From positions 930,001 to 994,000 of the forward strand of contig NZ_CP031311.1 of the NCBI RefSeq assembly GCF_004799685.1: a stretch of DNA of 64,000 bases, in the 5' to 3' direction. A model generated the notes under the pieces. That model was not told where the DNA came from. It made no database searches and was given only the letters and a program-made list of their open reading frames with translations. The stretch comes from Halobellus limi (GTDB lineage: Archaea; Halobacteriota; Halobacteria; Halobacteriales; Haloferacaceae). Position numbers and translations under genes: made by a program. Numbering within the stretch: the first letter of the stretch is position 1; the number at the start of each line of letters is the position of its first letter. Below, piece by piece: positions 33,874 through 36,284 of this stretch.

Positions 33874-34155
33874 ATGCAGATCACCTGGCGGCTGTTCGCC
33901 GATCTCGCCGAGGTCGCGGGCGGACGAGAACACACCGTCTCCGTCGGCGGCGACGGCACGGTCGACGACGCGATCGACGCGCTCTTAGCGGAGTGTGACG
34001 GTCTCGACGACCGGATTCTCGACGGTGACTCCATCGCCGACGACGTGAACCTGATGCGGAACGGCACGCCCGCCTCGCCGGCGGACGAGATCGACGACGG
34101 CGACGAACTCGCGATGTTCCCGCCGGTGACCGGCGGCTCACTGCCGATTGTTTGA
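33874..34155 (+). CDS. samp1: SAMP1/MoaD-type ubiquitin-like modifier with C-terminal extension
   Basis: A 93-residue beta-grasp protein. It starts MQITWRLFADLAEVAGGREH, has the LMRNG turn near residue 61, and the family C-terminus DGDELAMFPPVTGG at residues 75-88. Haloarchaeal SAMP1 and MoaD normally end exactly at GG, whose carboxylate is adenylated by UbaA/MoeB for protein modification or sulfur transfer. Here five residues (SLPIV) follow the diglycine. The added DNA is part of a 26-base repeat array, so the original stop was probably lost. Protease removal would be needed for activity; alternatively it is inactive, or the sequence contains an error. Confidence 0.88.
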   Translation: MQITWRLFADLAEVAGGREHTVSVGGDGTVDDAIDALLAECDGLDDRILDGDSIADDVNLMRNGTPASPADEIDDGDELAMFPPVTGGSLPIV

Positions 34156-34203
34156 CCGGCGGACCCTGGGCGGCTGTGTGACCGGCGGACCCGGACCGAC
34201 AGC
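34126..34203. repeat. Three 26-base tandem repeats across the 3' end of samp1
   Basis: Units at 34126-34151, 34152-34177 and 34178-34203 share tgaccggcgg. The first encodes the diglycine region, the second supplies the actual stop codon (34153-34155) in a shifted frame, and the third is non-coding. Confidence 0.85.
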
Positions 34204-34268: not shown

Positions 34269-36284
34269 CTACGACAGCCACTCGTCGGGCTTCGTGTCGT
34301 AGTCGATGTCGTCCGCGGCGATCCGCTCTTGCAGGTCGGGGTCGAGTTCGAACTCGTCGAACCCCTCGCCGTCGTAGCGGATCCGCACCCCGACTTCGGT
34401 GGGCTCCGGCTCGCGGTTGCGCCGACGCGCGATCTCGACGTCGTGGTCGTCGTACTCCTTGCGGATCGTCATCAGGTTGACCGGCCGGCCCCACAGTTCG
34501 TGGACGCGTTCGAGGACGTCGCGCGCCTCGTCGAGGTCGAGCATAATCCCGTTGTATCGGTGTCCGAGAAGCAACTCCCCGCGGTTCCGGAAGTTGTCGT
34601 CGAAGACGGCGATCGTCGGCTTCCCGAAGTTGGTGAACTGCAGGAGCAGCTTCTTCTTCACGTCGTCGGGGTCCGTCGAGGCGACGCGGAAGTCCCCCGT
34701 CGAGCGGGTGTACTCGTACGTGAAGTAGTCGTTCGACTCGACGAACTCCGGGGAGAGGAACGCGTCGAGGAACGTCACGTCGTTGTGACTCTCGCGGACC
34801 TCGTACATCCGGTTCCACCCGGCGGTCTTCTCGACCTCGGCGAGGGCCGCCTCGACGCTGCCGTACCTCGCGTCGTCGAACATGTATCTGGAGAGCTCTT
34901 CGAGCTCCGAGCGCCTGACGCGCCGGAGGAACCCCCGGTTCTGCGGTTTCACGAGCGAGAAGTGTCGCTCGGCCAGCCCCTCGTAGGTGAGGACCTTCCA
35001 CGGATAGCGCTCGACGTCGACGGCGTCGGGGTCCGACAGCGCCCGATCGAGCGTCTCCCAGTCCACGCGGGGGTCGTCCTCGGGGAGGGCCGCGAGATCC
35101 TCCAGGGTGTCCGGCCTGATGCGGTCGATCGCCGGGTGCGGTTCGAGGAGGGACTGGACCGCCTCGAAGTCGACGGCGTCGTGGAAGTTCCGCCAGGTGA
35201 TCCCCTCGACGCGGAGGAGCCTCTCCGCGACTTCCCGCCGGTTGGCCGCGTTCTCGACGTACTCCCAGAGTTCTTTCCCAAGCTTGTACGGGTTGAGCCC
35301 GGGCGAGCCCAGCACGCGGGCCTGGTGGTCGGCGTAGGTGAGGAACTCGTCGGTGCCGGCGAAGCGCTCCTCGCCCATCATCTGCGACTCCCAGTAGGCC
35401 GCCCAGCCCTCGTTCATCGTCTTCGTCATCTTCTGCGGCGCGAAGTAGTACGCCTCCCGGCGGAGGAGTTCGAGGACGTCGGTCTGCCAGGGCTCCATCT
35501 CGACGGCCTCGCCGGTCTCCTCGTCGTAGACGGTCCCCCGTTCGAGGAGGAACCCGAGGACGTCCGCCCGCGGCCGGTCGAGGTCCGCCGCGGCGGCCTC
35601 CGCCTCCGCGAGTTCGTCGAGCCACTCGTCGTCGAAGACCGCGCCGCTGACTGCGGGCGAGAAGTCCATCTCGTCGAGTCGCTCTCTGAGGTCCTCCGGC
35701 CGGCTCCGCTCCCCGTCGCGGTCGGCGGTCAGCGGCCGGTGCTGGTCGATCGTGTCCTCCAAGCAGGTGACGGCGTCGACGAAGCGCTCGACGTCCTCGC
35801 GGTCGATCTCGGAGTCCTCGACGTACCGCTGGATCGTCTCGGCGTGGCGTTCGAGCATCGCGGCGGCGTCGAGGTCGCCGTCGCCGGAGAACCTGGAAAA
35901 CCACTCGTTGTTGCGGAAGAAGTCCGCGTGCGCCTCGACGTGGGTGATCACGGCCTTCTGGTCGGCCAGGGAGTTCGACTCCTGCAGGAAGGCGTGGCTC
36001 GGGTCGTCGTTGTTGACGATCTCGAAGGCCTTGCCCATCCCGAACTGGTCCTGCTTGCGCTGGCGGTCGTAGGTCATCCCCCAGCGCCAGTGCGGGTACC
36101 GGGTCTGGAAGCCGCCGTAGGCGATGAGCTGGTTCATCTCGTCGTGGTCGACCACCCAGTAGTTCACCGGGTAGGGGTCGAGTCCGAGTTTCCGGGCGAG
36201 CGCGGCGGCCTCCCGCACCGGCTCTTCGAGCCGATCGGCCTCCTCGCGCGCCGCCCGTCTGAAACGTCGCGGTCTGGTTGTCAT
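34269..36284 (-). CDS. spoVR: SpoVR family protein
   Basis: A 671-residue protein, longer than the about 510 of E. coli YcgB because of extra acidic segments. It has SpoVR landmarks: PYPVNYWVVDHDEMN, YPHWRWGMTYDRQ, THVEAHADFFRNN, FAPQKMTKTMNEGWAAYWES, and the C-terminal TNFGKPTIAVFDDNFRNRGE. SpoVR/YcgB is conserved with YeaG/YeaH in stress-response operons; its biochemical role is not settled. ATG at 36282-36284 gives the family start. It is the last gene of the prkA1-prkA2-yeaH-spoVR set. Confidence 0.93.
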   Translation of the reverse strand: MTTRPRRFRRAAREEADRLEEPVREAAALARKLGLDPYPVNYWVVDHDEMNQLIAYGGFQTRYPHWRWGMTYDRQRKQDQFGMGKAFEIVNNDDPSHAFLQESNSLADQKAVITHVEAHADFFRNNEWFSRFSGDGDLDAAAMLERHAETIQRYVEDSEIDREDVERFVDAVTCLEDTIDQHRPLTADRDGERSRPEDLRERLDEMDFSPAVSGAVFDDEWLDELAEAEAAAADLDRPRADVLGFLLERGTVYDEETGEAVEMEPWQTDVLELLRREAYYFAPQKMTKTMNEGWAAYWESQMMGEERFAGTDEFLTYADHQARVLGSPGLNPYKLGKELWEYVENAANRREVAERLLRVEGITWRNFHDAVDFEAVQSLLEPHPAIDRIRPDTLEDLAALPEDDPRVDWETLDRALSDPDAVDVERYPWKVLTYEGLAERHFSLVKPQNRGFLRRVRRSELEELSRYMFDDARYGSVEAALAEVEKTAGWNRMYEVRESHNDVTFLDAFLSPEFVESNDYFTYEYTRSTGDFRVASTDPDDVKKKLLLQFTNFGKPTIAVFDDNFRNRGELLLGHRYNGIMLDLDEARDVLERVHELWGRPVNLMTIRKEYDDHDVEIARRRNREPEPTEVGVRIRYDGEGFDEFELDPDLQERIAADDIDYDTKPDEWLS

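Follow-up and report, generated by a model that had tools for sequence, protein, structure and literature searches.

Small archaeal modifier proteins of Halobellus limi encoded with residues beyond the diglycine: probable precursors for maturation by the JAMM1 desampylase

The 64-kb window of the Halobellus limi genome analysed here (G000:C1:930001-994000, G000 being this genome in the locus identifiers) holds a gene for the small archaeal modifier protein SAMP1, whose features are listed in Table 1. Its open reading frame starts with the ATG at 33874, and its 93-residue translation ends in FPPVTGG-SLPIV (full ending, FPPVTGGSLPIV), bearing out the claim of the first-pass annotation that this modifier does not terminate at its GG. 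The diglycine is encoded by GGC-GGC at 34132-34137, and the five residues behind it by TCA CTG CCG ATT GTT. The product belongs to the SAMP1 family, scoring 95.3 bits against the NCBIfam model NF041918 (cut-off 60) with a match to positions 2-91 of its 91, where position 91 corresponds to the second glycine of the SAMP1 core, while Pfam assigns it to the ThiS family. The nearest solved structures are those of Haloferax SAMP1 (4hro and 3po0), both terminating at GG, and the fold follows from these homologs. A GG at the extreme C-terminus is a trait of the SAMP1 type member and not part of the NF041918 model; in the encoded protein, five residues follow the GG, which would become the very last residues only after cleavage.

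Table 1. Features of the samp1 locus, in positions of the 64-kb window.
Feature	Position	Strand	Evidence
samp1 ORF, ubiquitin-like small archaeal modifier protein 1, putative precursor form, 93 aa	33874..34155	+	Translation, profile matches, structure alignment
Predicted mature SAMP1 core, 88 codons, ending in GDELAMFPPVTGG	33874..34137	+	Endpoint shared with the NF041918 model and Haloferax SAMP1; dN/dS
SLPIV tail after the diglycine, the predicted part cut off by the desampylase	34138..34152	+	Sequence; H. rarus SRATV in the same position
TGA stop, within the second TGACCGGCGG copy	34153..34155	+	Sequence
Three degenerate 26-base units, each with the exact 10-mer TGACCGGCGG	34126..34203	+	10-mers at 34127, 34153 and 34179
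SpoVR-family gene, convergent, downstream of samp1; neighbour outside the proposed mechanism	34272..36269	-	PF04293, 264 bits

The stop codon of samp1 had been placed in the second unit of a 26-base repeat, and this is where it lies: the TGA belongs to the second of three exact copies of the 10-mer, which follow each other at a spacing of 26 bases and have no further copies in the window. As this spacing is not divisible by three, the TGA of the second copy enters the samp1 frame, and the stop thus derives from the repeat. No other 10-mer of the whole 64-kb window forms a like triple, and none of 300 simulated sequences of 2.4 kb contained one. The repetition of the unit as a whole is nevertheless weaker than claimed, because only the three in-register 10-mers are exact, whereas the 26-base units agree poorly outside them (17, 17, and 19 of 26 bases overall) and were not called by Tandem Repeats Finder.

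Halobellus rarus, the sister of H. limi in the tree of the neighbouring SpoVR flank (support 100/99), holds the first two repeat copies with identical spacing. Its second copy is degenerate (TGACCGGCGA), and its stop falls at the same codon as in H. limi, which places the event before the origin of the species H. limi. The proposal that an original TGA behind the GGC had turned into TCA finds no support among the relatives: the codon at this place is TCC in H. rarus and TAG in the next relative (G008), and others have TCG, AGC, CGA, or CGG. From the suggestion that a tandem repeat and a lost TGA produced the tail in this strain, what survives is at most a local cause, as H. rarus has its tail at the same place together with some of the repeat. 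The repeat accounts at most for this species pair; as a general cause of tails it was rejected, since the majority of tailed species have no such repeat.

The SAMP1 tail of H. rarus, SRATV, occupies the same place and has the same length as SLPIV. This rejects a strain-specific oddity, and makes a sequencing error unlikely, given that the H. rarus assembly is independent. FPPVTGG is invariant in the Halobellus SAMP1 orthologs, and the tails after it are unrelated and span 0 to 8 residues: none in G003, G006, and G008; R in two cases; SRP and SAR; SLPIV and SRATV; SLSSVDP, of seven residues; and SERCDPVA and SGIGRGDA, of eight. Three more congeners with a more distant SAMP1 terminate at GG. The SAMP1 core is under purifying selection, with dN/dS values of 0.25-0.43 against 11 congeners. 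Activation needs a free C-terminal glycine and the encoded protein ends otherwise, so that the loss of its stop codon might be taken to have left the gene dead or in decay in this strain. Such a fate is, however, extremely improbable in view of these dN/dS values, a FPPVTGG unchanged in all congeners of the clade, a sister species with equal tail length, and the presence of tails in 48 species. Moreover, a second SAMP1 ending in GG, for which a genome search had been advised, was not found in H. limi, and the genome has no replacement SAMP1.

A survey of SAMP1 3' ends covered 219 haloarchaeal genes in 71 genera. The GG is intact in all of them (219/219), with or without a tail, and 48 of the 219, spread over 15 genera, are tailed. 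Tails have a median of 4 residues and reach 113 at the longest. In the first 160 genes, on which tail length was compared with read-through, the untailed ones show a median of 47.5 codons from their stop to the next in-frame stop, and tails are far shorter (P 3 × 10⁻¹⁵). Tails are therefore not simple read-through into random sequence, and long ones are either rare or removed. The longest, in L030 (G048:C1:1203520-1203798), extends 113 residues past the GG, a length that short-tail drift does not explain. In genus g13 (e.g., L024, L082, and L086), tails of the xVGR type abut a conserved element, GATCGGTCGTTTCAAACG, promoter-like for the next gene. A conserved tail acting as a signal was considered for this genus and set aside, because constraint on DNA and on protein are inseparable where tails adjoin such an element.

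The other SAMPs of H. limi are tailed as well (3/3), with SAMP2 ending in LRLIKGG-SSPR and SAMP3 in FPPVAGG-APGRAR. Unprocessed, all three would be devoid of a free GG end. The SAMP2 gene matches a Haloferax SAMP2 query with 77% identity and 92 bits. The other gene is labelled SAMP1 as well by NCBIfam; we take it to be SAMP3 from its sequence (FATFREA...FPPVAGG) and from what is known of the Haloferax protein. Within Halobellus, tails were found in 13 of the 13 SAMP3 genes and in 10 of the 12 SAMP2 genes examined. Most of the SAMP3 tail stops overlap a possible ATG or GTG start of the next gene, as ATGA or GTGA, and for this reason the length of the SAMP3 tail may be set by translational coupling.

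The H. limi genome also encodes a UbaA-like E1, MoaE, and the desampylase JAMM1 (G000:C2:307628-308020). With the haloarchaeal desampylase model NF041370, whose cut-off is 130, the latter reaches 165 bits, and its metal motif is intact (HSHP...SETD; EVCG ... HSHPTGPPHPSETD). By this model, 160 of 212 genomes possess JAMM1, H. limi among them, and PF14464 partitions the genomes identically except for G112, recovered by NF041370 as a divergent match. Tailed SAMP1 genes are present in 48 of 167 JAMM1-bearing genomes and in 0 of 52 JAMM1-less ones (untailed, 119 and 52, respectively). PF14464 is the sole source of the JAMM1 call for a few of the 52 and for some relatives that carry the gene. The raw association is strong (Fisher P about 5 × 10⁻⁷). 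With the genus as the unit, tails occur in 15 of 50 JAMM1 genera and in none of the JAMM1-less genera (P 0.0025-0.0034). Under a two-state model fitted and simulated on the SAMP1 tree, built on 252 bases, 10.7 tailed genomes would be expected among the 52 JAMM1-less ones, and zero was obtained in 0.25% of the simulations (P 0.0025). GC content was discarded as a confounder, as the association persists after stratification by GC (P 4 × 10⁻⁴). A strict independent-pairs test on the same tree, with between 0 and 4 informative pairs, each of them pointing the expected way, is underpowered. In JAMM1-less genomes, tailed SAMP3 and SAMP2 are likewise absent (0/11 and 0/5, respectively).

Tailed SAMPs are thus very probably precursors matured by JAMM1, with a stop position that is thereby free to drift. 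The product of samp1 would be a SAMP1 precursor, in which the beta-grasp core through the Gly-Gly is predicted to be the functional modifier and sulfur carrier, and SLPIV would block the C-terminal carboxylate. The cell's own JAMM1 would cut behind the second glycine and release SLPIV, after which UbaA could activate SAMP1. JAMM1 is expected to tolerate many residues past the glycine, and because of this the samp stop would drift in JAMM1 lineages and stay fixed immediately behind the GG in JAMM1-less ones. The same enzyme would mature all three SAMPs, leaving their stop position nearly free within a short range. The observations in support are the tail, the conserved GG, the parallel in SAMP2 and SAMP3, the genes for JAMM1, UbaA, and MoaE, and the co-occurrence of tails with JAMM1 among genomes, while the cut of SAMP1 by JAMM1 in H. 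limi itself is one that we infer. JAMM1 may owe its retention solely to deconjugation, and a different peptidase could trim the short tails. This last explanation, in which general carboxypeptidases or other proteases would make JAMM1 dispensable and its association merely historical, agrees with tails that are short and mostly unconserved, and with a presence of JAMM1 that changes just 13 times on the tree, hence with few independent losses. It is unlikely all the same, since the association holds by genus, after GC stratification, and in simulations on the tree, and is repeated in SAMP2 and SAMP3, and since an exopeptidase would need to halt exactly at the GG.

Among the three fates first envisaged for the gene (dead, proteolytically matured, or kept in reserve by its tail), maturation is the one supported, and death can be discarded because of the conserved core and the GG intact throughout the survey. 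The third, a regulatory lock in which tailed SAMP1 forms a stored inactive pool freed by controlled JAMM1 cleavage, is conceivable from the need for cleavage before activation, and a SAMP1-MoaE fusion is activated in a JAMM1-dependent manner in Haloferax (PMC4443979). Nonetheless, it is very unlikely, as the Halobellus tails are unconserved in sequence and length and missing in three congeners, which fits better with tolerated drift. It seems fairly likely that most Halobellus, and probably many haloarchaea, produce their SAMPs partly or wholly through JAMM1, and that the desampylase is there an obligatory maturase whose loss is possible only when all samp genes end in GG.

The maturation of SAMP precursors is already known in principle. 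The JAMM1 of Haloferax volcanii (HvJAMM1) cleaves a linear SAMP1-MoaE fusion precisely behind the GG, both in vitro and in vivo, restoring molybdopterin synthase in vivo, and no cut is detectable in the cell when the fusion has no GG (PMC4443979). This system shares the SAMP1 and desampylase families with Halobellus; however, Haloferax SAMP1 ends at GG (PDB 4hro, 3po0), and the linear substrate is an engineered fusion and not a natural precursor. In Caldiarchaeum subterraneum, CsJAMM cuts the SAMP precursors Csub_C0702 and Csub_C1603, whereas the CsUb precursor is cut by CsRpn11, exactly after the GG (PMC6043591). Archaeal ubiquitin-like precursors and a JAMM protease that cuts them would thus be common to both organisms. 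Caldiarchaeum differs in belonging to another phylum and in lacking a survey of tails against the protease, while Halobellus is characterized by tails on all three SAMPs and by their high variability. The release of ThiS or MoaD from fusions by JAB proteins was proposed by Iyer et al. in 2006 (PMC1779556).

The literature searched contains no report of haloarchaeal SAMPs as frequent precursors, of whole tailed SAMP sets, or of tails limited to JAMM1-bearing genomes, although earlier remarks are possible. In eukaryotes, the removal of a C-terminal peptide from precursors exposes the Gly-Gly, often by an enzyme that also deconjugates; mostly cysteine proteases make this cut, whereas in haloarchaea one metalloprotease would serve both tasks. 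Ubiquitin, SUMO, and NEDD8 are made as such precursors (PMC11354881). In the literature examined, a maturation role of haloarchaeal JAMM beyond desampylation has been approached through engineered fusions, and tails found solely alongside JAMM1 represent a natural experiment on this role. Culturable haloarchaea allow a direct test of how the processing of precursors, so characteristic of the ubiquitin systems of eukaryotes, can arise from a deconjugating enzyme. Annotation and tagging that presume a GG end will overlook or misread many SAMPs.

Besides SAMP2 and SAMP3, the H. limi genome holds two other ThiS/MoaD-like genes. One encodes a divergent fourth SAMP-like protein whose HPAMRGG abuts the stop (L213, G000:C1:2913894-2914454, minus strand), and the other, a beta-grasp protein ending in YPFLFCL (L036, G000:C1:1000574-1000708, minus strand). 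The latter is perhaps related to the CC-ending beta-grasp family described in haloarchaea together with the TBP-like arCOG06308 (PMC2948915), its double cysteine end then being altered here. In the SAMP3 region (L034, G000:C1:410915-414172), an 89-residue neighbour, with zero matches in NCBIfam and Pfam, ends in KAMRAGG directly before its stop, and its start codon is overlapped by the stop of the SAMP3 tail. Two other haloarchaeal genomes (L344, G026:C1:1346558-1347700; L345, G044:C1:1508691-1509757) have an in-frame fusion in which SAMP3 continues past its GG into such a small KAMRAGG-ending protein, its customary neighbour in the operon. As read from the genes, these fusions would be natural linear double-GG precursors, comparable to ubiquitin fusions, and their KAMRAGG partner is, from gene order and its GG end, probably arCOG06308.
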